From Verrucomicrobiota bacterium (GTDB lineage: Bacteria > Verrucomicrobiota > Verrucomicrobiia > Opitutales > UBA2995): 60,280 nt of DNA. A model generated the notes under the pieces. The model did no database searches, was not told where the DNA came from, and saw only the letters and a list, made by a program, of their open reading frames with translations. The DNA lies in contig JAQBYJ010000025.1 of assembly GCA_027622555.1 (NCBI GenBank), forward strand, positions 1-60,280. Direction: 5' to 3'. This document shows positions 43,476 to 59,901 of the stretch, piece after piece (the first letter of the stretch is position 1; each line of letters starts with the position of its first letter). The translations under genes and the position numbers were made by a program.

Positions 43476-45257
43476 ATGACTCGCGGCTGTATACCTGTTA
43501 GTAGGCTCGTTTGGATTTTCGTCGCTTTTATGATCGGGTTTGGTGCCGTACTCGTACAATTGGTAGACCTTCAGGTGTTGGAGCGTGACGATCTTGTCAA
43601 AGAGAGTGAAAGAATTCGGACAAAGTTTGAAAAGATAGAGGCCCGTCGAGGTAACATTTATGACCGGAACCACAACCTGATTGCCACCACCCACACTGTA
43701 CGCCAGGTGGGTGTGGATCCGCAGGCGTTAAAACCTGAGGATAAACCCAATTGGCATAAATTAGCCAAGCTTTTGGAAATCTCTTATTCAGAAGTTTATC
43801 AAAAATTGAAGGGTGAGACCCGAGTATTGGATGATTCATCTAAGCCGGTTCGATGGCGTGTGTTGGCTGATAATATTGATGAAAAGGTTTATCGAGAAAT
43901 ATTAAATCTCGGCGTCGATGGAGTGTACGGCAACCGGCACTTCAAACGTGTTTATCCTCAAGCTTCTCTCGCCGCTCATGTTCTTGGCTACGTGAATAAA
44001 GAGGAGACAGCTGTGGCCGGTATCGAGAAGGCCATGGATTTCTATCTGAAAGGTCAGACTGGCTGGATTGAAACGGAGTGGGACGGGAAGCGTCAAGAAA
44101 TGTATCAATACCGTAAACGTCAGGTAGAAGCTACAGATGGATTTCACGTTGCTCTCACCTTGGATATGATGGTTCAGCATGTGCTTGAATTAGAACTAAA
44201 GGAGATTGCGAAGCTCAGACCTATGGGAGCATCAATTATTGTGAGCGATCCATCCACCGGTAATATTTTGGGCTTGGCTAATTGGCCGACTTTCGACCCG
44301 AACGAATATTTTAATACAATTAAATATCCGGTTTCCCAACAGCGCAATTTGGCAATATCTGATATTTATGAACCTGGGTCTACTTTTAAAATAGTACCTA
44401 TCGGGGCTGGACTGTCTGAGGAAATCATCAATCCCATGATGGAGATCAATTGTTCGCTCACTCGCGTTCCGTACCTCGGTCGGGTCGTTCATCTACCTGC
44501 AGATCATGGAGGGAAGGACTATGGCGTGCTCTCCATTGAAGATGTTATTGCCCACTCCAGTAATCGCGGTGCTGCCCAAATTGGGATTATGTTAGGCGAA
44601 CAGCGACTTTATAATTACGCAAAAGCTTTTGGTTTTGGTGAAAAAACAGGGATTCTCCTGGGTCCCGAACGTGAAGGGATTCTCAACAAACCTGCAGATT
44701 GGGATGGTTTGACAATCTCTCGGTTGCCTATGGGTCATGCAATAGCCGTCACGCCACTGCAGGCGCATTATGCTATGTCTGTTTTAGCCAATGATGGCGT
44801 GCTCATGACTCCTCAGGTGTTGTCTAGAGTAGAGGATTCGGAGGGAAACGTTATATCGAACTACCAACCAAAACCGATTCGCCAGGTCATCTCCTCAGTC
44901 GCAGCACGATCTCTTTCACGGATGCTTGTAAAAACGGTGAGTCCTGAGGGAACGGCTCCTCAAGCGCAGATTCCGGGGATGGAGGTCGCTGGCAAAACGG
45001 GTACCGCCCAAAGAGTTCTTGAAACGGGGGGGTATTCGGCGACCGACGTGGATGTTTCCTTTATCGGCTATTTCCCTGCCAGTGATCCCAGGTTAGTAAT
45101 TTCTGTGATCATTTACGATCCTCAGGAAGGGTTACGTTACGGCGGTCAATTAGCGGGCCCCTCTTTTAAAAGAGTGGCTGAACAATTAATACATTTATTG
45201 GGCATTTCACCTACAGCCCCGATCCGTGGCTTTCTAGCCATGGGCGAACAGGAGTAA
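43476..45257 (+). CDS. ftsI: Septal peptidoglycan transpeptidase (FtsI/PBP3)
   Basis: 593 residues. FtsI cross-links septal peptidoglycan. A single N-terminal membrane anchor (VWIFVAFMIGFGAVLVQLV) is followed by a PBP-dimer domain (ARRGNIYDRNHNLIA) and a transpeptidase domain. Catalytic motifs are S302-T-F-K305 with Ser302 as nucleophile, S361-S-N363, and K507-T-G-T510. All are intact and spaced normally. The C-terminus has no PASTA domain. It overlaps none but is 3 bp after the ftsL-like gene. Confidence 0.95.
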   Translation: MTRGCIPVSRLVWIFVAFMIGFGAVLVQLVDLQVLERDDLVKESERIRTKFEKIEARRGNIYDRNHNLIATTHTVRQVGVDPQALKPEDKPNWHKLAKLLEISYSEVYQKLKGETRVLDDSSKPVRWRVLADNIDEKVYREILNLGVDGVYGNRHFKRVYPQASLAAHVLGYVNKEETAVAGIEKAMDFYLKGQTGWIETEWDGKRQEMYQYRKRQVEATDGFHVALTLDMMVQHVLELELKEIAKLRPMGASIIVSDPSTGNILGLANWPTFDPNEYFNTIKYPVSQQRNLAISDIYEPGSTFKIVPIGAGLSEEIINPMMEINCSLTRVPYLGRVVHLPADHGGKDYGVLSIEDVIAHSSNRGAAQIGIMLGEQRLYNYAKAFGFGEKTGILLGPEREGILNKPADWDGLTISRLPMGHAIAVTPLQAHYAMSVLANDGVLMTPQVLSRVEDSEGNVISNYQPKPIRQVISSVAARSLSRMLVKTVSPEGTAPQAQIPGMEVAGKTGTAQRVLETGGYSATDVDVSFIGYFPASDPRLVISVIIYDPQEGLRYGGQLAGPSFKRVAEQLIHLLGISPTAPIRGFLAMGEQE

Positions 45258-45369
45258 ATAATACATGATCGGATTTGCAGACCTTGAAACACACACATTT
45301 AGTATTTATTATCGGACACAAAGACGCTGGGGAACTGGTATACCCGGAAAGAGGTCTTTAACTAAACAT

Positions 45370-46866
45370 ATGATCGCTACACTAGAGACCCTTTTCCCTG
45401 AAGCACTTCGGCTCAAGCATACGGGAAACTTGAAGCACCAAGTATCCGCCTTGGTGACGGATAGTCGAAGGGTGATCCCTGGAGCTGTGTTCTTTGCCAT
45501 TCCCGGTCTACGGACGAATGGAACATATTTTGTCGAAGAAGCGATTGACCGTGGAGCTGTTGCGGTCGTTTCTGAAAGCGACCGTATCTATCCACAAATA
45601 ACCACCATTCAGGTTGAAAACATTCGTCGAGTTGTCGCCCAGGTGGCGAGAAGCTACTATGGATCTCCTGATGAAAATTTGGAATTGATCGGCATTACCG
45701 GGACAAATGGAAAAACGACCGTTTCCTATTTGGTGCAAAATCTTTTAAATGGGTTGGTTGGCGGATCGAAAACAGGTCTCATTGGTACCGTGCAGTATGA
45801 TTTGGGCGAAAGGACTTTGCCCTCTTTTAAGACTACACCAGAAGCTATTGATACGTTTGCTCTTTTAAAACAAATGAAAGATGCCGGTTGTCGAAGGGGC
45901 GTTATGGAGGTCAGTAGCCATGGCATTGATCAACAACGCATCTTTGGTACAAACTTCGATGTAGCCGTTTTTCTAAACCTCACCCGAGATCACCTCGATT
46001 ACCACAAGGACCTTGAATCTTATTATCAGGTAAAGCGTAGACTTTTTACTGGTGAAATTGGCACAGTGCCCAAAGTTTCTGTGGTCAATTTAGACGATGC
46101 TTTTGGAAAACGACTGGTCGATGAATTAAGTGGGATCAGTCGGGTGGTGACCTTTTCAATTTCGAACCCTGATGCGGATTTTTATCTTTCACAATTTGAA
46201 TGTGACCACTCAGGTTCCCGATTTGTTTTGGAAGGACCCGGAGGCAGTCAAACGGTTCGCACGCGTTTACCGGGAGAATACAATTTGAGTAATATTTTGG
46301 CTGCTCTCGCGGTATGTGAAGGCCTCGGTCTGAATATAGAAACCATTCTTTATCGTCTCAATTCCTTTGCTGGAGTTCCTGGTCGAATGGAGCGAATTCC
46401 AGGAGCGACAGACTTTGATGTTTTCGTGGATTACGCTCATACCGACGATGCTCTGGATAAAGCGCTTGGCATGTTGCGAGGAATTACCCGTGGCAAATTG
46501 ATTGTTGCCTTTGGCTGTGGTGGAAATCGGGATAAGGACAAGCGCAAGTCCATGATGGAAGTGGCTCAGAAACACGCTGACTTTGTTTGTGCAACCTCTG
46601 ACAATCCTCGAGGTGAATCCGTCGAAAATATCTTATCCGACATGAAACAAGGCGTTACGAAACCCAGCGGAGTTGCGTTTATTGCCGATCGAAGAGCAGC
46701 CATCAGCCATGTGCTGGACATCGCCCAGCCGGGTGATACGGTTTTGATTGCCGGTAAGGGGCATGAAACCATGCAAGAATTTAAAGACCGGATCGTCCCT
46801 TTTGATGACCGTGTCGTTGCCAGAGAACTTCTTGAATTCAAACAATTGGTTAACAGAAAAAAGTGA
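45370..46866 (+). CDS. murE: UDP-MurNAc-tripeptide ligase (meso-DAP adding)
   Basis: 498 residues from ATG 45370. An alternative ATG at 45265 has a fair ribosome site (GGAG at 45251) but would add 35 residues not typical of MurE; the start is open. MurE adds the third residue of the stem peptide. The ATP loop GITGTNGKTT is at 108-117 and DNPR at 411-414, a motif known to select meso-diaminopimelate, so the wall is of the DAP type. The KGHETMQEF and DDR blocks near the end are intact. Its end overlaps the GTG of murF (GTGA). Confidence 0.93.
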   Translation: MIATLETLFPEALRLKHTGNLKHQVSALVTDSRRVIPGAVFFAIPGLRTNGTYFVEEAIDRGAVAVVSESDRIYPQITTIQVENIRRVVAQVARSYYGSPDENLELIGITGTNGKTTVSYLVQNLLNGLVGGSKTGLIGTVQYDLGERTLPSFKTTPEAIDTFALLKQMKDAGCRRGVMEVSSHGIDQQRIFGTNFDVAVFLNLTRDHLDYHKDLESYYQVKRRLFTGEIGTVPKVSVVNLDDAFGKRLVDELSGISRVVTFSISNPDADFYLSQFECDHSGSRFVLEGPGGSQTVRTRLPGEYNLSNILAALAVCEGLGLNIETILYRLNSFAGVPGRMERIPGATDFDVFVDYAHTDDALDKALGMLRGITRGKLIVAFGCGGNRDKDKRKSMMEVAQKHADFVCATSDNPRGESVENILSDMKQGVTKPSGVAFIADRRAAISHVLDIAQPGDTVLIAGKGHETMQEFKDRIVPFDDRVVARELLEFKQLVNRKK

Positions 46867-48257
46867 AACCCTTATCGACTAAACATTTTTCAAGCTGGAC
46901 CGGTGGTCAATGGATGGGGGATCCTCCGAAGGAGATAGTAGGATTTAACATAGACACGCGCACACTCAATCCCGGCGAGGTTTTTGTAGCTATAAAAACG
47001 GACCTGCGCGATGGACACGATTTTATTGAGGCTGCCAAGGCTAATGGAGCAAGTGCTGCGTTAGTTTCAAAACATCAGCCGCAGGTGGATCTGCCCCAGT
47101 TGGTCGTAAAGGATGCGCCACAAGCGTTACGTGAACTGGCGATTCAAGTTCGGATTGAATATTCCGGTACTGTTATTGGCGTAACAGGAAGTTGTGGAAA
47201 GACATCGACCAAAGAATTGTTAGCCGTGCTTTTGGGCGAACACACATTGAAGACTCCAGGAAATTTCAATAATCGATTGGGCGTTCCATTAACATTACTT
47301 CAATTGCGCGATGAGTATTCGAACGCAGTGATTGAAGTCGGTATGAGTACGCCCGGAGAAATCGCTTCATTGGCAAAAATTCTTCAACCCAAATATTCAA
47401 TCATAACCACGGTTGCTCCTGTCCATTTGCAAGGAGTGCCTTCGCTTGAAGGTGTTGCAGTAGAGAAAGCCGCTTTAGCGGAAGCATCCAGTAAACTTAC
47501 TATTTTGCCGGTGGAATGTTTTCGATTTTCTCCCTTTACCAAACTGAAGACTCCGTGCCTGATTGCCGGGAAACCCGAGCCTGGCCGCTCTTATCCGAGC
47601 GGGTCTTGCTTTGTCGATTTTAGTTTGGATCAGCAGGCCAAAAAGACAGACATTGTGCTTCGTCCGAAAGGGGGCTCGGTGCTTAGTTTCTCCGTTGACC
47701 GTACGAGTAATGGCATGGCGAGGAACATGGTCTTGTCTCTTCTTTTAGGGCTTGAACTAGGACTCGACCCTCATGCTTTGCAAACGCGCCTGGACGGTTG
47801 GGAATCAGCCGAACTTCGCTGTCAAAGGGACCGTGTTGGTGATCTCGATTTCTTTGTCGATTGCTACAATGCGAATCCCGCGAGCATGCGAGACTCCCTG
47901 GAATTTTTCAACGCGACCACTTCCGCTGATCTGCCCCGTTTTTATGTCATTGGCGGGATGAAAGATCTGGGCGAGTACACGGAAGAATACCACCATGAGT
48001 TAGGTCGTTCTTTTAAACTCAGGTCGGTGGATCGTCTATTTATGATTGGTGAGGAGATGCAAGGATTTCTCGCCGGGTTTCGAGCAGCAGGCCGCGACGA
48101 AGAACGTGTCCGATTATTTAATTCTCAAACCGATGTGATCAAAGAGCTTCGTCATTTGGAAGGCTCCGTTTTTTTAAAAGGCAGCAGAGCTTACGCCCTT
48201 GAAACCATTTACAATCAACTGAAAGAAATACACCGACCGGTGGAGACAACATGCTGA
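46863..48257 (+). CDS. murF: UDP-MurNAc-pentapeptide ligase
   Basis: 464 residues from GTG, overlapping the murE stop by four bases. MurF adds D-Ala-D-Ala to the tripeptide. The ATP motif GVTGSCGKTSTKE is at 106-118. The N-terminal FVAIKTDLRDGHDFIEAAKANGA and the NNRLGVPLTLL block match the family. The C-terminal domain ends normally with FLKGSRAYALE. Its D-Ala-D-Ala substrate must be made by a ddl elsewhere. Confidence 0.94.
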   Translation: MKPLSTKHFSSWTGGQWMGDPPKEIVGFNIDTRTLNPGEVFVAIKTDLRDGHDFIEAAKANGASAALVSKHQPQVDLPQLVVKDAPQALRELAIQVRIEYSGTVIGVTGSCGKTSTKELLAVLLGEHTLKTPGNFNNRLGVPLTLLQLRDEYSNAVIEVGMSTPGEIASLAKILQPKYSIITTVAPVHLQGVPSLEGVAVEKAALAEASSKLTILPVECFRFSPFTKLKTPCLIAGKPEPGRSYPSGSCFVDFSLDQQAKKTDIVLRPKGGSVLSFSVDRTSNGMARNMVLSLLLGLELGLDPHALQTRLDGWESAELRCQRDRVGDLDFFVDCYNANPASMRDSLEFFNATTSADLPRFYVIGGMKDLGEYTEEYHHELGRSFKLRSVDRLFMIGEEMQGFLAGFRAAGRDEERVRLFNSQTDVIKELRHLEGSVFLKGSRAYALETIYNQLKEIHRPVETTC

Positions 48258-49351
48258 GTTATCTGGCAGATTTCGAGAATTACTGGGGACCGCTCCGACT
48301 GTTTCGTTACATAACGTTTCGGGCGCTGTTTGGTTCTGCGACCGCATTAATTTTCGGATTTCTTATTGCCGGACCTTTGTTGAGTTACCTGCGGCAATTT
48401 AAACTCCACCAAGCGCTGAGAGACCAATCTGAAGTGGGTTCATTGGCGGCACTTCATGCAGGGAAAAAAGATACTCCCACCATGGGCGGATTAATGATTT
48501 ATTTTTCTGTTACCATTAGCACCATTCTTTGGGCCATCCCTAATATTTTTGTTATTACCGCTTTGGCCGTATACACTGGGCTAACTGCGTTGGGGTTTAT
48601 GGATGACTATGCTAAAGTGACCAAGAAAAACAGCGCAGGGTTGAACAAAAAGCAAAAACTCCTTTGGCAGACGCTTATCACTCTCGCTGCTTTGACTCTT
48701 CTTTTGCTTCATCCAGATAGTGCCAATAAGGTTCGAGAATTTTGGGTGCCGTTTTTCAAGAATCCCCTCTTTTTGATGCTTCCAATTCCCGTGCTGTTTG
48801 TCTTCCTATTTTTTATTTTGGTCGGTTCCTCAAACGCAATTAATCTCACGGATGGCATCGATGGCCTGGCGATTGGCTGCACCATTTCGGTTGCGCTCGT
48901 ATATTCAATTATGGCCTATGCTGCCGGTAATGCACTGATTGCCGACTATCTGTTTATCAGTTTCGTCCCAGGAGTTGGTGAGTTGAGTATTATTTGTGGT
49001 TGTCTGGTAGGGGCGGGGCTGGCCTTTCTTTGGTACAACTCGCATCCAGCCGAAGTTTTTATGGGGGATACCGGATCGCTTGCGCTTGGTGGTTTGATCG
49101 GCGTGGTTGCTTTTATGGTCCATCAACCTCTTACCTTGGTTATCGTGGGTGGCATTTTTGTTATGGAGGCCCTTTCTGTGATCATTCAGGTATTTTCGTA
49201 CAAAATCCGGAAAAAACGGGTGTTTAAAATGGCACCTATTCATCATCATTTTGAATTAAAGGGATGGCCGGAATCTAAAGTGGTAATCCGGTTTTGGATT
49301 TTATCACTGGCATTTGCTTTGGCAGGATTGGGGACCCTGAAATTACGTTAA
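48251..49351 (+). CDS. mraY: Phospho-MurNAc-pentapeptide transferase
   Basis: 366 residues, about ten membrane segments. MraY makes lipid I from UDP-MurNAc-pentapeptide and undecaprenyl phosphate. D118-D119-Y-A-K-V, N195 and L-T-D201 of NAINLTDGIDGLA, D273 of FMGDTGS, and the H331-H-H333 motif in MAPIHHHFELKG are all in place. Its ATG lies within the last seven bases of murF. It is followed by murD with four bases between. It looks fully intact. Confidence 0.96.
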   Translation: MLSYLADFENYWGPLRLFRYITFRALFGSATALIFGFLIAGPLLSYLRQFKLHQALRDQSEVGSLAALHAGKKDTPTMGGLMIYFSVTISTILWAIPNIFVITALAVYTGLTALGFMDDYAKVTKKNSAGLNKKQKLLWQTLITLAALTLLLLHPDSANKVREFWVPFFKNPLFLMLPIPVLFVFLFFILVGSSNAINLTDGIDGLAIGCTISVALVYSIMAYAAGNALIADYLFISFVPGVGELSIICGCLVGAGLAFLWYNSHPAEVFMGDTGSLALGGLIGVVAFMVHQPLTLVIVGGIFVMEALSVIIQVFSYKIRKKRVFKMAPIHHHFELKGWPESKVVIRFWILSLAFALAGLGTLKLR

Positions 49352-49355
49352 TCTC

Positions 49356-50636
49356 ATGCATCCGTCTTTTGATATTGAATCCTGGTTTAAAAAACCTGTC
49401 GCTATCTTTGGTGCTGGAATCAGCGGCAAGGCTGCTGCTGAGTTGGTAGAATTCAAAGGTGGTCATTCGATTGTTTACGATGAGGTAAATTCTGACTTTC
49501 CGCTTTGTTTTGAAAAAGAGGATGCAGAGAAACATGCGCTGGTAATCGCCAGCCCTGGTTTTTCAGCTAAACATCCCTGGATTGCAAAAGCACTGGCAGC
49601 TGGGTGCGAGGTTATGGGCGAACTTGATTTGGCCTGTCTTTTTTGGAAAGGGAAAATTGTGGCAGTAACTGGAACCAATGGAAAAACTACCTTGGTTGAA
49701 TTTATAACCCACTCGTTGATTTTCGCCGGTTTGGACGGTTACGCTGTCGGCAATATCGGATTTCCATTTGCGAGTTTGATTCAAAAACATAATTCAGCGG
49801 ATGCGTGGGCCGTTGTCGAAGTGAGCTCGTTTCAAGCGGAGCTCATGAAATACTTTAGAGCCGATAGTATCGTCTGGTCAAATTTTTCGGAAGATCACCT
49901 CGACCGTTATGGAAATATGAAAGACTATTTCCTTGCGAAAGTGCGACTACTTGATGTCGCAAAAGCCAGGACGGTTTTTATTGGCAAGGATGTGGATGCC
50001 CAATTTCGCGAGATTGGCTTAGCGGTTCCCAAGGAAACGTATGTTTTGGACCGGTCGTTCATTCGTGTTCCTGAAGGTTCGATTTTCAGTTTACGGCCAC
50101 AACGGGAGAATTTCCAATTTGCTGCTCTTTTATTTCGTTCCTGGGGTTATGATCCGGAAATGCTTCACGATTCAGTTCGAAGTTTTAAGCAAAGTCCACA
50201 TCGCCTTGCCCCAGTTGCCACGATTAATGGAGTGGAATTTTGGAACGACTCCAAGGCCACGAATTTCTCATCCGCGGAGGCAGCCCTAAAGCACTTCCAA
50301 AAACCTATTTATTGGGTTGGTGGTGGACGAACCAAGGGCGGGCGAATCGAAGCATTTGCTCAAAGAATCGGTCATCGTTTCAAGAAAGCATTCCTGTCTG
50401 GTGATACATCTGAGGACCTTTGCACCATTTTTCAAAGTATCCAGGTCCCTTGTGAGTCATTTGATTCTTTGGAAAATTCAGTTAAAGCCGCCTATCAACA
50501 GGCTACCGAAGGATCCATCGTCCTGTTTAGTCCGGGTTTTGCCAGCCAAAAACCTTTTAGAAATTACTCGGAACGAGGGAAAAGTTTTGAGAGAGTCATA
50601 TCAGACATCCAGGTTAGCATACAGCCAACGACATAA
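49356..50636 (+). CDS. murD: UDP-MurNAc-L-alanine:D-glutamate ligase
   Basis: 426 residues. MurD adds D-Glu to UDP-MurNAc-L-Ala. N-terminal UDP-binding Rossmann-like part VAIFGAGISGKAA; ATP loop GTNGKTT at about 106-112; central SSFQAE and NDSKATN blocks; C-terminal LFSPGFASQKPFRNYSERGKSF is typical. Length is normal for the family, slightly short. Seven bases separate it from the LysM gene downstream. Confidence 0.94.
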   Translation: MHPSFDIESWFKKPVAIFGAGISGKAAAELVEFKGGHSIVYDEVNSDFPLCFEKEDAEKHALVIASPGFSAKHPWIAKALAAGCEVMGELDLACLFWKGKIVAVTGTNGKTTLVEFITHSLIFAGLDGYAVGNIGFPFASLIQKHNSADAWAVVEVSSFQAELMKYFRADSIVWSNFSEDHLDRYGNMKDYFLAKVRLLDVAKARTVFIGKDVDAQFREIGLAVPKETYVLDRSFIRVPEGSIFSLRPQRENFQFAALLFRSWGYDPEMLHDSVRSFKQSPHRLAPVATINGVEFWNDSKATNFSSAEAALKHFQKPIYWVGGGRTKGGRIEAFAQRIGHRFKKAFLSGDTSEDLCTIFQSIQVPCESFDSLENSVKAAYQQATEGSIVLFSPGFASQKPFRNYSERGKSFERVISDIQVSIQPTT

Positions 50637-50642
50637 TTTATC

Positions 50643-51785
50643 ATGAAAGCTCACGTATTTATTTCAGTTTTAGCATTCCACGTAGTGGTTATCGCAGGGT
50701 TATACCTGCTGTCAGCCTGTTCCAGCAGCAGTGGACCCGCACCGTCTCCCGAGCAAACAAATTCCCCATCAACCGGAGGTTCTACTTACGATGGCTATTC
50801 AGCACCTAATCGTCCCACTGAAAATGATGACATTGTCGTAACTGAATACAATCAGCCTCAGTCGAATCGAGGAATTGATTCTGCATTTAATAGTGGATCG
50901 AATGCTTACTCAACTTCGCCGACTAACTCGCGCGAGAACCGTGCGCAACCGACCCGCCCAGGTAGCGGTCCGTACGATTCGTATCAACAACCAGTCTTGA
51001 ACCCTGATTTACAAGACGAAGAGGTTCTCCAACCTTTAACCGGTTTTGATACTACGACTCCAGCTGTTCAGTACTCGGTTAAAAAGGGCGATAATCTTTG
51101 GAAAATTTCGCGAGATTTCAGTATCGCTCTAAAAGATTTGTTGGCAGCCAATGGGCTTAGCGAAAATTCAACAATAAATATAGGCCAGAGCCTGGTGATC
51201 CCATCTGAAACATCTGGACCTCCTATTCAACGTTTCGTCGCCGAACAAGACAGCCAATCCGAGGTGTATACCATTACCAAAGGAGACACGCTTTCTCGTA
51301 TCGCCAAGCAATTTAACACAACGGTTAATGATATCAAAATTGCCAATGCTTTAAAGTCCGATGTGATTCAACTGGGTCAGCGTCTGACCATCCCGGTTAA
51401 TAGTGTTTCCACACGCGGAGTAAGTGCGACCCCCACTCAAACCTACAGCACTCCTGCCGTAGCTCCGACTCCTCAAACCAGACAGTCGAATTTTGATGGA
51501 ATTATCCATGTTGTTCAATCCGGTGAAACTCCCGGAGCTATCGCGAAAATGTATGGGATAACCACGAGCCAACTCATGAAAGATAACGGTATCCAGAATG
51601 CCCGTTCACTTCAAGTGGGTCAAAAGTTGGAGATTCGTTTAGGCGTTGCACAACCGAGTCTGGCGGTTCCTCCATCGAGCCGGCCAAGCAATACGCAACC
51701 AGTTGCGACTCCCAACCAATTTGAAGATTCCGTTTTCGGCGACCTTGAAAACTTTCCGGAAGTCGAAGTTGTTCCACGATCCTAA
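50643..51785 (+). CDS. Lipoprotein with three LysM domains
   Basis: 380 residues. Residues 1-25 form a lipoprotein signal with lipobox L-S-A-C26. A low-complexity Ser/Thr/Pro/Asn linker runs to about 140. Three LysM modules follow: about 143-188 (YSVKKGDNLWKISRDF), 207-253 (YTITKGDTLSRIAKQF) and 286-332 (HVVQSGETPGAIAKMY). LysM binds GlcNAc in peptidoglycan. There is no peptidase or amidase domain, so it may anchor or organise the envelope. Its place between murD and ftsW suggests a role at the septum; that is inference. It is not found in the E. coli cluster. Confidence 0.88.
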   Translation: MKAHVFISVLAFHVVVIAGLYLLSACSSSSGPAPSPEQTNSPSTGGSTYDGYSAPNRPTENDDIVVTEYNQPQSNRGIDSAFNSGSNAYSTSPTNSRENRAQPTRPGSGPYDSYQQPVLNPDLQDEEVLQPLTGFDTTTPAVQYSVKKGDNLWKISRDFSIALKDLLAANGLSENSTINIGQSLVIPSETSGPPIQRFVAEQDSQSEVYTITKGDTLSRIAKQFNTTVNDIKIANALKSDVIQLGQRLTIPVNSVSTRGVSATPTQTYSTPAVAPTPQTRQSNFDGIIHVVQSGETPGAIAKMYGITTSQLMKDNGIQNARSLQVGQKLEIRLGVAQPSLAVPPSSRPSNTQPVATPNQFEDSVFGDLENFPEVEVVPRS

Positions 51786-51816
51786 CCAATTCCAAAGCTC
51801 TCCCACACCGCTCTGA

Positions 51817-52977
51817 ATGAGTAAAGCCAAAAAAGAAGCACCTAATCCTGGTCATTCTTTCTATCAACGATTACTGATCATTATCAGTGTTTCTACGCTC
51901 ATATTAATTGGATTGATATCCATCTTTAGTGCAACCCAATCACTGGATGCGGGTTCCTACAAATTCCTCGAACGTCAAATCATGTGGCTTGGCATTTCTG
52001 TCGTAAGTGGAGTGTTTGTTTCCCTGGTGGATCTCGATCGTTTGAAAAAGTTGGTTCCCTTGGCAGCCTTGTTTGCCGTAGTTGTATTGATTGCGGTGCT
52101 CATACCCAAGATTGGACATTTGGTAAATGGAAGTCGCCGTTGGATAACCTTTGGTTCGATTGGTTTTCAACCATCCGAATTTGCCAAGATTCCGTTTGTA
52201 TTTTTGATAGCCTATTACCTGAGTACGAACCAGCGGTATTTGAAGACGTTGATGCGTGGTTTTGCCATTCCCCTTGGAATGATCGGAGTGTTTTGTGTAC
52301 TAGTTATTCTGGAGCCTGACTTTGGTACGTGTGCGCTCTATGGTGCAGTCGGAGTGATGCTATTGTTTTTAGCCGGAACTCGTCTCACTTATCTGATTCC
52401 TAGCGTTATCGGAGGTGGAACTTTATTCGTGTATTTGATATTCCAGGATGCAGTACGATTGCGTCGCCTGATGTCGTTCCTGGATGTGGAAGCTAATAAG
52501 CTCGGTGGAGCTTATCAACTCCATCAGGGCCGGATGGCTATGGGAAATGGTGGCATGACGGGAGTAGGTGCCGGAGACGGACGTTTTCAAAACAGCTTTT
52601 TGCCTGAAGCGCATACCGATTTTATTTTTTCTATCATCGGTGAAGAATTCGGCTTTATGGTCACCTGCCTTATAGTCGTACTATTTATGATCATTTTTTG
52701 CACTATCATTTTCTCGATGAGACGTGCGCCGAATCTCTTCCAAGGCTTACTTGTGTTGGGTTCGTTGCTGATGATTGCCATGCAGGCATTGATCAATATG
52801 GGTGTAGTTACCGGGCTTTTGCCCACCAAAGGAATGTCTCTTCCGTTTATTAGTTATGGTGGATCAAACCTTGTGGTCATGTGTGTGTTTACTGGAGTGC
52901 TGATCAACTGTCTTCGAAGTTGGGAAAGTCTTCCCATACGGACAGAGCGGCGGAAACTTGTTGAGATTCGGGGCTAA
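51817..52977 (+). CDS. ftsW: SEDS peptidoglycan polymerase FtsW
   Basis: 386 residues with about ten membrane segments. FtsW is the septal glycosyltransferase partner of FtsI. Conserved blocks include LEPDFGTCALYGAVG, EAHTDFIFSIIGEEFG and LPFISYGGSNLVVM. The last is the family signature near the C-terminus. It ends one base into the ATG of murG (TAATG). Length and motifs are normal, and the cluster position beside murG is typical. Confidence 0.95.
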   Translation: MSKAKKEAPNPGHSFYQRLLIIISVSTLILIGLISIFSATQSLDAGSYKFLERQIMWLGISVVSGVFVSLVDLDRLKKLVPLAALFAVVVLIAVLIPKIGHLVNGSRRWITFGSIGFQPSEFAKIPFVFLIAYYLSTNQRYLKTLMRGFAIPLGMIGVFCVLVILEPDFGTCALYGAVGVMLLFLAGTRLTYLIPSVIGGGTLFVYLIFQDAVRLRRLMSFLDVEANKLGGAYQLHQGRMAMGNGGMTGVGAGDGRFQNSFLPEAHTDFIFSIIGEEFGFMVTCLIVVLFMIIFCTIIFSMRRAPNLFQGLLVLGSLLMIAMQALINMGVVTGLLPTKGMSLPFISYGGSNLVVMCVFTGVLINCLRSWESLPIRTERRKLVEIRG

Positions 52978-54110
52978 TGGCCAAGATACTAATAGTATGT
53001 GGAGGTACCGGTGGGCACCTTACTCCGGGTATCGCCATTGCTGAAGAGCTCACGCTTCGAAGGCATCATTGTACCTTGGTTGTCTCTCGAAAAAAAGTAG
53101 ATTCAAGACTCATCCGGAACTACCCGATGATGGAGTTTATCGAAGCACCGGGTGCACCATTTGCATGGCGTCCCGTTGCGCTTGTCAGATTTATCTGGGT
53201 ACAAATTACAGCATTCATTTTTGCTCTACGATTATTGTCACAAAAAAAACCGGATCTTATTCTTGGGTTTGGTGGTTTCGTTTCCGCAGGTATTGCATTG
53301 CCTGGTTGTATGAAAGGAATACCTTTCGCTTTGCATGAGGCTAACCGGGTCGTTGGTCGATCGAATCGTTTACTGAGTCGATTTGCAAGTAAGATATTTC
53401 TTCCAAAGGGAGTTGTATTTCGAGGTATCCAAATCAGCAAAATTCAATATGCAGGTCTGCCTCTTCGTAAAGAGTTTGTACCTATGATTAAAGAAACGGC
53501 GCGTGAGCTTCTTGGAATTAGTCCGTCTGGAAAACTGTTGGTTGTTTTTGGAGGTAGCCAAGGTGCGAGTTCGCTTAACAATTGGGCGAAAGACAACGCC
53601 AAGGCATTGGCGGAGCGTGGCATTTCTATTTATTGCCTGATTGGAATGAACAAGGATATTCCAATCGAAACAGATTTCGATACGGCATCTTGGGGTGTGG
53701 TTAAAGCTTGGTACGTTCCTTTTTCCGATAACATGCCTGCTGTGTTGTCTGCAGCCGATCTTGTTGTTTCTCGAGCTGGCGCCGGAAGTATTGGGGAAAT
53801 TATTCGCTGTCGAGTTCCTTCAGTACTTGTTCCATATCCTTTTGCTCGTGATGATCATCAAAGCGCCAACGCTGAGTATGTCGCCCGCCAGGATGCCGCA
53901 CATGTTCTGGAAGATTCCCAACTCGATTCTCTGTTTGATTTAGTTATTCGACTTTTATTTGAAGAATCAGAAAACAAGCGTTTGAAGGAGAATCTTAATT
54001 CCATGGATCTACCTGAAGAGGCAATTCTGATCGCCGATGCCCTTGAGGATTTAATTCCGGTAAAGTTGGAAAGATCCACGGCTACAACCCTTCCGTCTCG
54101 AGAAGTATGA
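52977..54110 (+). CDS. murG: UDP-GlcNAc transferase MurG
   Basis: 377 residues. MurG turns lipid I into lipid II. The N-terminal G-loop GGTGGHLTPG is at 9-18. FGGFVSAGIALPG, HEANRVVGRSNRLL, the second G-loop VVFGGSQGASSLN, and ADLVVSRAGAGSIGEI followed by VPYPFARDDHQSANAEY match the family. Active-site elements are complete. It overlaps the murCB gene by ATGA at its end. Confidence 0.95.
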   Translation: MAKILIVCGGTGGHLTPGIAIAEELTLRRHHCTLVVSRKKVDSRLIRNYPMMEFIEAPGAPFAWRPVALVRFIWVQITAFIFALRLLSQKKPDLILGFGGFVSAGIALPGCMKGIPFALHEANRVVGRSNRLLSRFASKIFLPKGVVFRGIQISKIQYAGLPLRKEFVPMIKETARELLGISPSGKLLVVFGGSQGASSLNNWAKDNAKALAERGISIYCLIGMNKDIPIETDFDTASWGVVKAWYVPFSDNMPAVLSAADLVVSRAGAGSIGEIIRCRVPSVLVPYPFARDDHQSANAEYVARQDAAHVLEDSQLDSLFDLVIRLLFEESENKRLKENLNSMDLPEEAILIADALEDLIPVKLERSTATTLPSREV

Positions 54111-56452
54111 TCACGATTGAATCAGATCTTGCTTCAAAGCATTTCCACATGATCGGAGTTGGCGGTATGGGAATGGCACCACTTGCGATATTTCTGAAGC
54201 AAGCCGGTTGTCGGGTTACCGGGGAAGACGATAATTTTCATCCAAGAGTACATCAAATGCTTTTGGGCAATGGGGTTGAAATAAGTAACAAACCCGATTG
54301 GGGATCCGCAGATGGTATAATCTATTCAAATGCGATCGGTTTGAACCACCCGGGATTAAAAAGTGCGTTGGCTCAAAAAGTTCCATCTATGCGTCGCGGT
54401 GAATTCCTGGCGGCACTCAGTAAGTGTTTTAAAACAATTGCGATAGCCGGATCTCATGGGAAAACCACTACTTGTGGTCTTTTGATTTACGCGCTGACTC
54501 AATCTGGGATCGACTTCAACTACATCCTGGGCGGACTCTTTTCTGAAGACAGGCTCCTACCTGGGCATTCTAACAAGGAAAGTCTGTGGTTGGTAATTGA
54601 AGTGGATGAAAGCGATGGCAGTATAGAGTCCTTTGTTCCAGCGATTTGTTTGTTGGTAAATGTCGATTGGGACCATGCTGACTATTACCAAACGAAAAAC
54701 AAATGTACGGAAACCTTTCGTCAGCTAATAAAACGCACGTCCGAGCACGTGTTCTTGAACCGTTCTTGCGAATTATCAAGGGGCTTGGATCTCAGTGGAA
54801 TCGATGCCGCGATTCATACCTTTGGTGAAAATGGTGAAGCTCAACTTACCCGTTTTTCGAATGGCACCATGGAAGTCAGTGGGTCATTGCCAAGTTGTAC
54901 ATTGAAAGTTCCCTTTGACGAACCTTTCAATGCTCAAAACGCATTGGCCGCCCTCAGTGTTGTTCATTTATTAAAAGGAAAACTAAATGATTCGTTGCTA
55001 GCCGCATTTCCAGGGCTATGGAGACGTCAGGAAGTTCTTTTCGAAAAAAACGGATTTTCAGTAGTAGAGGATTACGGTCATCATCCTACAGAAATTCGAA
55101 AACTCTTTGAAGCATTCCATTTAAAGGGTGGTTCAATAAGCGTGGTTTTTCAGCCCCACCGATATTCCCGAACACTCCAGTTCAAATCTGAATTTGCGGA
55201 GGTCCTTTCTCAGGCAGATCGATTACTTATGATGGAAGTTTATGGAGCTGGTGAAGACCCAATTCCAGGTGGGACTGGCACAGATCTGTTTAATGCCTAC
55301 TCCGAAATTGCCCCGGATCGAGAATCGTATTTCTGCAAAGATCAAAAGGCCGTTTTGGAACAACTCGCGAAGTTGAAACAAGCCTCTGGCGTTTTATTGT
55401 TTTTAGGTGCGGGAAATATTCATAATGTTGCTGCCGAGTATGTATCAAATCTCAACAATAATGAGGCGATTTCCAACGATGAATTTCTGTCCGATTTAAA
55501 GGGACGTCTTGGCCGTGATTCTTTGCTTAAATCCAATGAGCCTTTGGCGTTCAAAACGACGCTTCGTGTAGGCGGGTTCGCTGATTACTATGCCGAACCG
55601 GCAAGTGAAACCGATTTACAGGTTCTGTTGCGCAAAGCAGCGAAATATGGGGTGAAAATCCACTTTCTAGGAAGAGGATCCAATGTGGTGATTCCCGATT
55701 CAGGTGTGCGTGGGTTGGTTATTCGCCTATCGAAACCCTTCTTTCAAAAAATAGAAGTCATGGAAGACGGGCGCGTTCGAGCGGGTGCAGGAGTGAGGCT
55801 GAAAGAACTCTGTGGCTTTATGCGCAAACTCGGAGTGGCTGGTTTCGAATTTCTTGAAGGAATTCCAGGTAACGTTGGCGGTGCATTGCGCATGAATGCC
55901 GGTGCAATGGGGGGCTGGGTTTCTGAGGTAATTTCGGAAGTTGTTCTTATGAATTACCGCGGGGACATTTCGAACATTTCCGTTGAGGACCTCCATTTTG
56001 GTTACCGTCATTGTCATGAACTCAATGATGCTATCGGACTAGCCATTGTTTGTAAAACGGGTGAAGCGTCTTCGGTCCAAACGATTCAGCACACTATGGA
56101 CGCCTATCAAAATTCACGTAAAGAGTCCCAACCTCGATTGCCGAGCGCTGGTTGCAGTTTTAAAAACCCGGAGGGTTCTGCTGCGGGAAAGCTGATTGAC
56201 CAATCAGGGCTAAAAGGATTTTCAGTAGGCGGAGCCGAAGTCTCGGATGTGCACGCGAACTTTATTGTGAACCGCGGAACTGCGACTGCATCCGATGTTA
56301 TATCCCTAATAAACGAATTACGCAAAAAAGTGTACCAGAAAACCGGATATGAGCTTGAACCCGAGGTCATTTTGTTCGGTGATAAATGGGAGAATTATTT
56401 AGATTCGCTGCCAAAAGAGTCTTGTACTTCGCTTCCTGTTTCCCAACCTTGA
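54107..56452 (+). CDS. murC/murB: Bifunctional MurC-MurB fusion
   Basis: 781 residues. Residues 1 to about 450 are MurC (UDP-MurNAc:L-alanine ligase) with HMIGVGGMGMAPLA and the ATP motif G115-S-H-G-K-T-T-T. After a linker at about 450-480, the rest is MurB (UDP-GlcNAc-enolpyruvate reductase): LRVGGFADYYAEP near 486, FLGRGSNVVI, GIPGNVGGALRMNAGAMGG near 585, and the catalytic Ser block AGCSFKNPEGSAAGKLID near 680, ending ELEPEVILFG. Both parts look active. One protein makes UDP-MurNAc and adds the first amino acid. It overlaps murG by four bases and is 25 bp before ftsQ. Confidence 0.95.
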   Translation: MITIESDLASKHFHMIGVGGMGMAPLAIFLKQAGCRVTGEDDNFHPRVHQMLLGNGVEISNKPDWGSADGIIYSNAIGLNHPGLKSALAQKVPSMRRGEFLAALSKCFKTIAIAGSHGKTTTCGLLIYALTQSGIDFNYILGGLFSEDRLLPGHSNKESLWLVIEVDESDGSIESFVPAICLLVNVDWDHADYYQTKNKCTETFRQLIKRTSEHVFLNRSCELSRGLDLSGIDAAIHTFGENGEAQLTRFSNGTMEVSGSLPSCTLKVPFDEPFNAQNALAALSVVHLLKGKLNDSLLAAFPGLWRRQEVLFEKNGFSVVEDYGHHPTEIRKLFEAFHLKGGSISVVFQPHRYSRTLQFKSEFAEVLSQADRLLMMEVYGAGEDPIPGGTGTDLFNAYSEIAPDRESYFCKDQKAVLEQLAKLKQASGVLLFLGAGNIHNVAAEYVSNLNNNEAISNDEFLSDLKGRLGRDSLLKSNEPLAFKTTLRVGGFADYYAEPASETDLQVLLRKAAKYGVKIHFLGRGSNVVIPDSGVRGLVIRLSKPFFQKIEVMEDGRVRAGAGVRLKELCGFMRKLGVAGFEFLEGIPGNVGGALRMNAGAMGGWVSEVISEVVLMNYRGDISNISVEDLHFGYRHCHELNDAIGLAIVCKTGEASSVQTIQHTMDAYQNSRKESQPRLPSAGCSFKNPEGSAAGKLIDQSGLKGFSVGGAEVSDVHANFIVNRGTATASDVISLINELRKKVYQKTGYELEPEVILFGDKWENYLDSLPKESCTSLPVSQP

Positions 56453-56477
56453 TATCCCAATTACCTGCTGACCAATC

Positions 56478-57407
56478 ATGCCAAAGAATAACAATAAAAA
56501 AACCCCGGAATCAACCTGGCAAAGAATACCTCAAAGAGCTGGAAAACAATCAATTACAAGAGAATCGCGCATTATGCGCATACGCCGGCTTTTGCGACTC
56601 AGCGCCATAAGTTTGGGAACAGGTTCACTTGTACTGGGATTATCGTTACTCGGGTATTACTTTGTAAATACTCCCCCAAAACAGGCTCTTCATGATGTTG
56701 CCTCTTCTTTTGTTGAAATCGAAATCGAAACGGATGGTGTGCTTCCCCCGTCCTGGATTGAATATCGGATGGCCCTTGAGAATAATTTGGGGTTACTGCA
56801 GATCGATATGACTTCCGTAAAATCTGCACTTGAAAGCTACCCGCAGATCAAAGAGGCCTCCGTCGAAAGGGAGTTTCCTAGTAAACTCCACGTTCGGGTC
56901 CGTGAACGGATGCCCGTTTTTCGAATAAAGGTTAAGGATGAGATCGGTGAATCACAGATTTACATGGTCGATGAAGAGGGGTTTGTGTTTAAAAATATTC
57001 GTTTTCCTGATCAAGCGATCAATCATTTACCCTTTATTGCAGGCGTAGATCTTCAACGGAACGATAGTGGATATCATCCCATTACTTCTGTCCCCTGTTT
57101 GGCGGAATTATACAAGGTTGCTTGCTCTGAATATCCTGAACTCGCCCGAGAGTGGAGTATCTTATTTGCCGATCGATTGATCAGGGGCAAGAATTTTACT
57201 AAAGGGTATATCCGGGTGCATTCTCTAAGTGTTCCGGAGATATTATTCAGTCCTAAACAATTTGCTGATCAGTTAGAAAAACTTGATTACATTCTCGACA
57301 GCCAGGGTGGGCCATCTGTATCTTTTGTCTCCCGGGTGAACCTCTCCGTTTTGGACCAGCCAACTGTTGAATTCGCCAGTCCTTCTTATCCTAACAACTC
57401 ATATTAA
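56478..57407 (+). CDS. ftsQ: Cell division protein FtsQ
   Basis: 309 residues. A basic cytoplasmic head (many Lys/Arg), one membrane segment at about 46-65 (GTGSLVLGLSLLGYYFV), then a POTRA-type domain (about 100-145: LENNLGLLQIDMTSVKSALESYPQIKEASVEREFPSKLHVRVRE, broken by variable residues). FtsQ ties FtsL/FtsB to the early divisome. The PSKLHVRV motif is the most reliable mark. The rest of the beta domain is divergent. Position between murCB and ftsA supports the call. Confidence 0.85.
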   Translation: MPKNNNKKTPESTWQRIPQRAGKQSITRESRIMRIRRLLRLSAISLGTGSLVLGLSLLGYYFVNTPPKQALHDVASSFVEIEIETDGVLPPSWIEYRMALENNLGLLQIDMTSVKSALESYPQIKEASVEREFPSKLHVRVRERMPVFRIKVKDEIGESQIYMVDEEGFVFKNIRFPDQAINHLPFIAGVDLQRNDSGYHPITSVPCLAELYKVACSEYPELAREWSILFADRLIRGKNFTKGYIRVHSLSVPEILFSPKQFADQLEKLDYILDSQGGPSVSFVSRVNLSVLDQPTVEFASPSYPNNSY

Positions 57408-57428: not shown

Positions 57429-58640
57429 GTGAACTCCAAAATCATAGGAGCCATAGAGATTGGTACCAGTAAAACCGTCGTACTCATCGGCGAGATCGTA
57501 AACGAAAAAACTCTTAATATTGTCGGCATGGGAGTCTCCTCAAGTCGCGGTGTTAAGAAGGGTGAAATAATCGACTTCAATGCGGCCAGTGACTGCACTC
57601 ATGCAGCGATTATGGCAGCTGAGGAGAGTGCAGGTGTTCGCGTAGATGGCGTTTATCTGGCTCAATCTGGTAGGCATCTTGAGACGTTCTATAATGATGC
57701 TGAAGTGACGGTTAAATCCTCCGACAACATTGTAAATCGTTCTGATATTCGTCGCCTGCTTACCGAGGCTAAGAGTAAACAATTATCTGAAGATCGAGCG
57801 ATTATTCACCACATCCGAACCGGTTTTGTGTTGGATGGTGATCCGGTAGATAATCCAGAGCATATGGAAGGCCACAAGCTGGGTGTGGGTTATTGGAATA
57901 TTCACGGATCGGTTAAAAAGATGAGTGATTCAATTCATATCATCAATGGTTTCGGTCTTCATGTGGAAGACCTGATTGTTAGTTCCCTTGCTTCGGGTAA
58001 GATGGTTACCACCGAAGAGGAACGGAAGAGTGGGGTGCTCGTAATCGATATTGGCAGTGGATCAACTGACTACGTTTTATTTAATAATGGATATGTTACC
58101 CATACCGGTGTTATAGCGGTGGGTGGAGATCACATAACCAATGATTTGAGCATCGGCCTTCGGACGAATGCCAAGTTGGCTGAAATGCTTAAAGTTAAAA
58201 ATGGCAAGGCCATGCTTGAGCCAAAATCAAAAGACGACAAAGTCATGCTCATAGGCGATCTGACTATTGGTGACCGTTCCATCTCGCGCTCAGTCGTATG
58301 TCAGATAATCAACGCCCGAGTTGATGAGCTCTTTAAGTTGATTCGGGGGGACAAGAATGTTGCCCATTACTTTTCCAACCGGCAAATTTCTTCCGTGGTG
58401 TTAACTGGTGGTTCATCCCAATTACAAGAGATAGACCGGTTGGGTGAAAAGATATTTGGCCTTCCCGTAACGCTCGGTGAAAATCCATCCTGGGTTGCTT
58501 CCGATCTCGCCGGACCAGATTTTAGCACCGCCTTGGGACTCCTTTATTTTGGATTCAGTTACAAAGACGATAATCTGATTCCCAAGGAAGGTAAACGAAC
58601 CAAGCTTATGAAGGGCGTTAAACAACTACTTGGCTTTTAA
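57429..58640 (+). CDS. ftsA: Cell division protein FtsA
   Basis: 403 residues from GTG. FtsA is an actin-like ATPase that ties FtsZ to the membrane. The phosphate loop region GAIEIGTSKTVVLIGE, the VLVIDIGSGSTDYVLF block and the SSVVLTGGSSQLQEID block are all typical. The C-terminal amphipathic helix KRTKLMKGVKQLLGF is present, so membrane anchoring is likely. A GTG start is chosen because it lies directly in front of the first strand. Its stop is 10 bp before the ftsZ ATG. Confidence 0.94.
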   Translation: MNSKIIGAIEIGTSKTVVLIGEIVNEKTLNIVGMGVSSSRGVKKGEIIDFNAASDCTHAAIMAAEESAGVRVDGVYLAQSGRHLETFYNDAEVTVKSSDNIVNRSDIRRLLTEAKSKQLSEDRAIIHHIRTGFVLDGDPVDNPEHMEGHKLGVGYWNIHGSVKKMSDSIHIINGFGLHVEDLIVSSLASGKMVTTEEERKSGVLVIDIGSGSTDYVLFNNGYVTHTGVIAVGGDHITNDLSIGLRTNAKLAEMLKVKNGKAMLEPKSKDDKVMLIGDLTIGDRSISRSVVCQIINARVDELFKLIRGDKNVAHYFSNRQISSVVLTGGSSQLQEIDRLGEKIFGLPVTLGENPSWVASDLAGPDFSTALGLLYFGFSYKDDNLIPKEGKRTKLMKGVKQLLGF

Positions 58641-58650
58641 TTTTGACCTC

Positions 58651-59901
58651 ATGGAATCTCAAGCACTTTTCGAAAACCCGGTTCGTATTAAAATTGTAGG
58701 CGTTGGAGGAGCCGGAAACAATGCGGTTGACCGCATCCGTATGGATATGGAGCAACTCGATGGGTTGAGCCTGGCCTGTGTTAACACGGATCTGAAAACG
58801 TTGTCCGACTCGCCGGTTGGAGAAACGCATCTCATTGGTAGAAATATTACCCGAGGTCTTGGAACAGGTGGGGATCCGGAGTTGGGCAGGAAAGCCGCCG
58901 AGTCCGATCGCGAAATCATTACCCGTCTGGTGGATGGTTTCGAGCTTATCTTTATAGTGGCCAGTCTGGGTGGCGGTACAGGAGTTGGTCTATCGCCCGT
59001 GATTGCTGAAATTGCCAAACAAAAGGGCGCTCTGGTCATTGCTTTTGTGAATATGCCCTTCACTTTTGAGGGAGAGCGTAGGTTTAAAATGGCGAACTCT
59101 GCCTTAAAAGAGCTCCGCGATATTGCCGATGCGGTAATACCTCTTCCGAATGATATGCTACTTCAGGAAGAATCCGCCCAGGATTCTGTACTGAACGCAT
59201 TCTCAAAAGCTGATGAATGGATAACTCGTGGAGTAAAGTCCATATGGTCTATATTGCTCAAGACCGGGTTGATTAACGTGAATTTTTCCACACTTCGCGA
59301 AGTGTTCAATATTCGTGGAGGAAAAACTTTATTTGGATTCGGAGTCGGTCAGGGGCCAAATTTTATTCAGAATGCGTTGGATGACCTCGTTCTCTGTCCG
59401 TTGCTGCACGTGCCCGATTTCTCGAAGGTTGCCGACAATCTTTTGGTAAATATTGTAGGTGGGACAGATCTACAGATGTCACAGGTTCAAGAGATTATGA
59501 CTTTTGTAACCGAAAAGTTTGGTAGCCGAGAAAACACAGTTTTAGGAGCTGTAATAGACGAAGGTAAAACCAATACAGTTGAGATCTGCGTCCTGGGTAC
59601 GACCGATGCGGGAGCGATGCGAAGTTTTAGAAAAACGCGAGTTTCCCCCGCACACCGTTTACCAGAACCCAGGAACCAGGTCCCGGTTAGGGCTGTTTCT
59701 CTTCGCGAGAAAACGACCGCCGGTGAAGTTCGCAAAATGGGCCAAATGGACCTTATCCCCAAGATTCAACAAGAATTGGGTTTTGATGGGATTGATGAGA
59801 ATCGTGGATTTTTTGAAGAAACAGGCCGGAATGTGCACGACGGATTGGACTTGGATGTTCCTACTTATTTGAGAAGAGGAATACGCGTAGTGCTTCATTA
59901 A
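58651..59901 (+). CDS. ftsZ: Tubulin-like cell division GTPase FtsZ, divergent T7 loop
   Basis: 416 residues from the ATG at 58651; a TTG frame seven codons earlier overlaps ftsA and is not needed. FtsZ builds the division ring. GTP side: GVGGAGNNAVDRI, G107-G-G-T-G-V-G113 (usually GGGTGTGAAP), PFTFEG-E-R-R with Glu140, PLPNDML, and Asp188 are present. The T7 loop, normally N-x-D-F-x-D, reads N209-V-N211-F-S-T214, so both catalytic aspartates are changed. A C-terminal conserved peptide DVPTYLRR (about 400-407) for FtsA binding is kept after a short linker. Binding of GTP and polymerisation remain plausible, but stimulated hydrolysis is not. It is the last cluster gene. Confidence 0.95.
   Translation: MESQALFENPVRIKIVGVGGAGNNAVDRIRMDMEQLDGLSLACVNTDLKTLSDSPVGETHLIGRNITRGLGTGGDPELGRKAAESDREIITRLVDGFELIFIVASLGGGTGVGLSPVIAEIAKQKGALVIAFVNMPFTFEGERRFKMANSALKELRDIADAVIPLPNDMLLQEESAQDSVLNAFSKADEWITRGVKSIWSILLKTGLINVNFSTLREVFNIRGGKTLFGFGVGQGPNFIQNALDDLVLCPLLHVPDFSKVADNLLVNIVGGTDLQMSQVQEIMTFVTEKFGSRENTVLGAVIDEGKTNTVEICVLGTTDAGAMRSFRKTRVSPAHRLPEPRNQVPVRAVSLREKTTAGEVRKMGQMDLIPKIQQELGFDGIDENRGFFEETGRNVHDGLDLDVPTYLRRGIRVVLH

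Follow-up and report, generated by a model that had tools for sequence, protein, structure and literature searches.

Breakdown of GTP by FtsZ is normally enabled by two acids of the T7 (synergy) loop, for which the canonical form is N-x-D-F-x-D, with D209 and D212 as the acids in Escherichia coli. To our knowledge, these two aspartates are treated as universal in the papers on the mechanism of FtsZ. In beta-tubulin the catalytic acid of the T7 loop is replaced by a non-acid and the GTP which it faces is stable, while the alpha-tubulin partner keeps its acid. The ftsZ2 mutant of E. coli (D212G) is reportedly viable with very low GTPase activity.

The hydrolysis motif of FtsZ is quoted as NxDxx[D/E] (PMC12583498), and the GTPase rate of the Bacillus subtilis protein is quoted as about 0.8 Pi/FtsZ/min in PMC11987601. 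The E. coli D212A mutant is left with 7% of GTPase activity and Arabidopsis FtsZ1 D275A with about 15% (PMC8142252). In Staphylococcus aureus FtsZ, D210 swings to position the attacking water and D213 supplies the environment; D210N and D213N each abolish assembly alone, a K+ ion in the neighbouring subunit's T7 loop is locked in place by the glutamine equivalent to E. coli Q47, and the Q48A change lowers GTPase about six-fold and yields stable filaments (PMC8936486). The Q47K and D209C forms of E. coli FtsZ fail to support division (PMC13423816), and therefore in the S. aureus and E. coli backgrounds changes of this type inactivate the protein rather than slow it. Among Verrucomicrobiota, ftsZ is known as an essential gene of Verrucomicrobium spinosum (PMC12283558). 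In the passages of PMC1845146 matched by the literature search, the V. spinosum FtsZ is called "canonical" with eight positions unlike all other phyla, and these passages carry no mention of the T7 loop.

The window, i.e. the whole analyzed stretch of 60,280 nucleotides, comes from a genome of Opitutales (Verrucomicrobiota) and carries ftsZ as the last gene of a dcw cluster which is complete upstream, directly after ftsQ-ftsA (Table 1). The start given for ftsZ in the list of open reading frames is TTG 58630, overlapping the 3′ end of ftsA; the ATG at 58651 (MESQALF...) agrees with the N-termini of relatives (MESQ/MDSQ) and was preferred, and the residues of the window FtsZ are numbered from it. 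A MurC-MurB fusion, likewise reported for V. spinosum, is present in the dcw cluster at window positions 54107-56452. At the contig end (60209-60280) there is a truncated open reading frame beginning MKCYQPSFFDEAERYIKLDKLKDP, which we take to resemble the N-terminus of an IS5-type transposase.

Table 1. Location of ftsZ, its functional segments and its neighbours in the window
Feature	Position	Strand	Remarks
Rest of dcw cluster	43476..57407	+	ftsI-type PBP, murE, murF, mraY, murD, LysM protein, ftsW, murG, murC-murB fusion, ftsQ
ftsA	57429..58640	+	Immediately 5′ of ftsZ
ftsZ	58651..59901	+	416 aa from ATG 58651; PF00091 4.1e-40, PF12327 1.1e-10
K49	58795..58797	+	At E. coli Q47 / S. aureus Q48 position (facing-subunit residue)
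Tubulin signature GGGTGVG	58969..58989	+	T4 loop, core intact
T7 (synergy) loop NVNFST	59275..59292	+	N211, T214 in place of E. coli D209, D212
E217	59299..59301	+	E. coli position 215; acid specific to the family, one helical turn inside H8; candidate substitute acid
C-terminal peptide	59851..59898	+	Conserved region ending LDVPTYLRRGIRVVLH

The window protein is an FtsZ by its descent, fold, neighbourhood and C-terminal peptide. Both Pfam domains score above their cut-offs (PF00091 138.5 bits against 33, PF12327 42.1 bits against 27), while the NCBIfam ftsZ equivalog TIGR00065, which is the sole family match (E 9e-81), stays at 271.9 bits and does not reach its cut-off of 295.2. In the AlphaFold2 model the core is predicted with confidence (pLDDT mostly above 80-90) and H8 is placed at 212-218, and the best 50 PDB matches of the model are all FtsZ chains, nearly all with a TMt of 0.85-0.93. 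Membership of BtubA/BtubB does not apply, as the nearest relatives are FtsZ and there is one gene rather than an A/B pair. A genome-wide search with the tubulin/FtsZ family (genome of 6.0 Mb, 95.8% complete) gave the window ftsZ as its single match and no second FtsZ or tubulin; the suggestion of a sequence-only reading of this DNA that another tubulin homologue may do the turning over was hence left unsupported.

The T7 loop is encoded as N209 (AAC, 59275-59277), V210 (GTG), N211 (AAT, 59281-59283), F212 (TTT), S213 (TCC) and T214 (ACA, 59290-59292). On alignment with solved FtsZ chains, N211 falls opposite D209 and T214 opposite D212 of E. coli, and NVNFST departs from the NxDxx[D/E] motif. 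The replacement of both aspartates, which the sequence-only reading had pointed out, was borne out by this alignment and by MAFFT and HMMER, and it is confirmed that both catalytic T7 acids are absent from the window FtsZ. Because the hydrolysis motif fails and the score lies under the equivalog cut-off, the label "canonical FtsZ GTPase" should not be applied. That reading was also right that the remaining GTP pocket and the C-terminal FtsA peptide are kept: E140, D188 and GGGTG are present, and the motif DLDVPTYLR[RK]G, which is likely FtsA-binding, is conserved across the FtsZs of Opitutales. It had missed the lysine at the position of Q47. In the GTP-binding motif (GGGTGVG against GGGTG[T/S]G) the core is kept and the sixth residue is V, with A in the sister species; N207, D45, R142, E138, N165 and GGG[TS]G are kept in every species of the window's genus, and the first five of these are conserved in 8/8 members of the family.

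Four of the six species of the window's genus carry N-[VI]-N-F-S-T in this loop and the other two carry NVDISS; in the sister genus the loop is NLDFSS in both members. Among the four N/T species the codons for Asn (AAT/AAC) and Thr (ACA/ACG/ACC) vary synonymously, and in the FtsZ core the pN values within the genus lie at 0.04-0.10, one close pair having 0.016, while synonymous differences approach or reach saturation. Since silent positions change and the residues themselves do not, and pN is low against a saturated pS, the protein is a maintained one, and the gene, as judged from these codon comparisons, is under strong purifying selection and reflects neither decay nor error. Chance is excluded because all 88 control FtsZs described below read N-D-D and four species have N/T in different synonymous codons. 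It is thus highly improbable that the loop comes from a sequencing error or a decaying gene, or belongs to a disused FtsZ in an organism that divides by other means, even though the window is an assembled contig and FtsZ was not detected in some families of the order with small genomes. These readings are opposed by the occurrence of N/T in four species under different codons, by the purifying selection, by the presence of one copy only, and by a reading frame, pocket and cluster that are all intact; the earlier statement that ftsZ is not decayed and sits in an intact cluster also holds. Sequencing error or frameshift at the T7 loop is ruled out by the synonymous codon variety and purifying selection, and decay is likewise refuted.

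Positions 209 and 212 were surveyed in the FtsZs of 255 Verrucomicrobiota genomes, one genome per species, where the sampling of clades is uneven and percentages describe the sample. They were read by MAFFT and by HMMER, which disagreed on two rows only, both unalignable. The controls were taken from the top-scoring matches that this type of search gave in Bacteroidota (30), Bacillota (29) and Patescibacteria (29), and both acids are present in 88/88 of them. In Verrucomicrobiota both acids are present in 47 FtsZs, only 209 in 137, only 212 in 57 and neither in 14, of which three, all from one family, have an unalignable region. The window's own family (n=8) is divided equally between only 209 (4) and neither (4). 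The rest of the order (n=107) has only 209 in 100, both in 4, neither in 2 and only 212 in 1; the rest of the class (n=72) has only 212 in 44, both in 18, neither in 6 and only 209 in 4; and the rest of the phylum (n=68) has only 209 in 29, both in 25, only 212 in 12 and neither in 2. The FtsZs with only 209 are thus mostly Opitutales and those with only 212 are mostly from the rest of the class. Exactly one acid is kept in 194/255 and at least one in 241/255; despite this tendency, independent-pair tests for a correlated loss of 209 and 212 were far from significant.

Relatives of the window FtsZ do not all read D-x-x-D, and the earlier proposal of a clade trait stood in part: the loss of the second Asp is order-wide, but the loss of both acids with an intact pocket was seen only in four of six species of one genus. 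Where neither acid is present in other aligned FtsZs, N207, D45, R142 or the G-box is mostly missing as well; one of these FtsZs keeps N207, D45, R142 and the GGGTG box with a quite different loop (NVTPGI). On these alignments the window's genus appears to be the only clade found in which neither acid remains and the tested active site and the loop are otherwise intact.

Some further patterns were observed in the survey. In the class outside the order, the reciprocal pattern occurs: D209 is changed to G, T, S or H with D212 kept, often there is an Asp at 211 (xGLDDL), and N207 is mostly lost in these FtsZs. Four FtsZs and their relatives are very divergent; both their tubulin signature, which is damaged (e.g. 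CAGGFAGG, GGDFGST), and their T7 dyad are affected, the latter being lost, and judging by these motifs they may be unable to bind GTP. In four families of the order, with genomes of 0.8-1.0 Mb that are mostly 83-95% complete, FtsZ was not detected, in contrast to the other members of the order; FtsZ-free division is possible in these reduced symbiont-like lineages.

A tree was built by FastTree with the T7 columns left out; its branches are long and its deep details uncertain. Opitutales form a supported clade in it, nearly all without acid 212 and with a few apparent regains. From the predominance of only-209 FtsZs in Opitutales and the intact controls, it follows that the loss of the second Asp is an old order-wide trait. 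The simplest history would be one loss of D212, at the base of Opitutales or close to it, and a later loss of D209 within the window's genus. The larger finding from these comparisons is that the T7 dyad has broken down across the phylum, with single losses that are reciprocal between clades; the window's genus is the end point of this breakdown, where both acids are lost and the active site is otherwise intact. A search of the open-access literature, subscription papers being outside it, found no earlier report of this T7 pattern in Verrucomicrobiota.

The charge could in principle have moved instead of being lost: E217, which lies on H8 a single turn away from T214, would supply it, K49 would replace the K+ ion, and hydrolysis would be near normal. 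E217 is present in 8/8 members of the family, in 4% of the other Opitutales and in 0/60 canonical FtsZs, and position 47 is K or R in 8/8 family members (K in the window FtsZ, R in the sister genus). Both changes lie at the subunit interface to which the T7 loop belongs. Shifted acids may occur elsewhere too, as many Verrucomicrobiia without D209 have an Asp at the adjacent 211. However, the four family members that retain D209 have E217 just as well, and therefore it did not arise as a replacement of D209. Q47 (E. coli numbering), found in 87/88 controls, has given way to other residues in over half of the surveyed Verrucomicrobiota FtsZs whatever the state of the dyad, and within the phylum its loss is not associated with dyad loss (28/47 vs 115/203). 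We consider such a moved acid unlikely. The idea of Q47K as a compensation for the lost acids was also considered and is speculative, since position 47 is loose phylum-wide and shows no association with the dyad state.

The reading which we prefer, with a probability of roughly 0.57, is that the window FtsZ is a working Z-ring protein whose subunit interface has been rebuilt on polar uncharged T7 residues and which hydrolyzes GTP slowly with an acid-poor site. As the only FtsZ of the organism it would very likely form its Z-ring. The subunits would bind GTP in the intact pocket and assemble head to tail, and the T7 loop of the next subunit would contact the gamma-phosphate via N209, N211 and T214. 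These residues could hydrogen-bond the attacking water, but hydrolysis would be slow because they cannot serve as charged acids. The ring would then be longer-lived and its turnover more reliant on outside factors, and the state would have arisen by the two steps of loss given above. Polymerization, slow hydrolysis, formation of the ring and its use in division, and altered dynamics are what we infer for the window FtsZ. The single copy, the complete dcw cluster, the purifying selection, the intact pocket and the FtsZ fold count for a slow-GTPase Z-ring, as does the presence of both acids in only 47/255 members of the phylum against 88/88 controls. The essentiality of ftsZ in V. spinosum also speaks for it, and the residual activities of E. 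coli D212A and Arabidopsis D275A, together with the viability of ftsZ2, speak for slow hydrolysis. The inactivating mutants of S. aureus and E. coli and the equivalog score under its cut-off count against it.

A protein that does not hydrolyze GTP at all is quite unlikely. Its GTP-bound filaments would be a static scaffold, turned over by proteolysis, depolymerizers or dilution. Neither acid is left in the loop, single losses already cut the activity strongly in E. coli and Arabidopsis (PMC8142252), and hydrolysis-impaired filaments of S. aureus (Q48A, R143K) are straight and stable (PMC8936486); yet the retention of at least one acid in 241/255 Verrucomicrobiota FtsZs suggests that one is normally needed. 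It is correspondingly doubtful that the genus divides with a Z-ring FtsZ which uses no acidic T7 residue and is essentially GTPase-dead, in a phylum that has repeatedly dismantled the dyad. If this were true, treadmilling of FtsZ driven by hydrolysis would be dispensable or replaced in the window's genus.

In a phylum with cultured and genetically tractable members such as V. spinosum, the pair is broken in roughly four-fifths of the sampled genomes; the acid that is lost differs reciprocally between clades, and in one genus most species have neither. These FtsZs offer natural proteins with which to test if division requires GTP hydrolysis to be fast and FtsZ to treadmill, and natural variants for assigning the catalytic roles residue by residue. 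They also bear on whether cleft-directed drugs would act on Verrucomicrobiota.

In comparison with known systems, the window FtsZ shares the fold, the G-box, N207/D45/R142, the FtsA neighbour and the C-terminal peptide with the canonical FtsZs of E. coli, B. subtilis and S. aureus, and differs from them by D209N, D212T, Q47K and an extra E at position 215. Like E. coli ftsZ2 (D212G), D212A and Arabidopsis FtsZ1 D275A, mutants whose GTPase is low, it has no acid at 212; unlike these laboratory mutants, its state is natural, old and fixed, and the first acid is lost too. The FtsZ-like protein of Nitrosopumilus maritimus similarly lacks the NVDFAD loop, but it is also without the GTP-binding motif and formed no polymer in yeast (PMC3684127), whereas the pocket of the window FtsZ is intact. 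A non-acid at the catalytic T7 position is also the condition of beta-tubulin, although here every subunit lacks the acid. Finally, a broken T7 dyad is common in other FtsZs of Verrucomicrobiota, most of which keep one acid, whereas the window's genus mostly keeps none.
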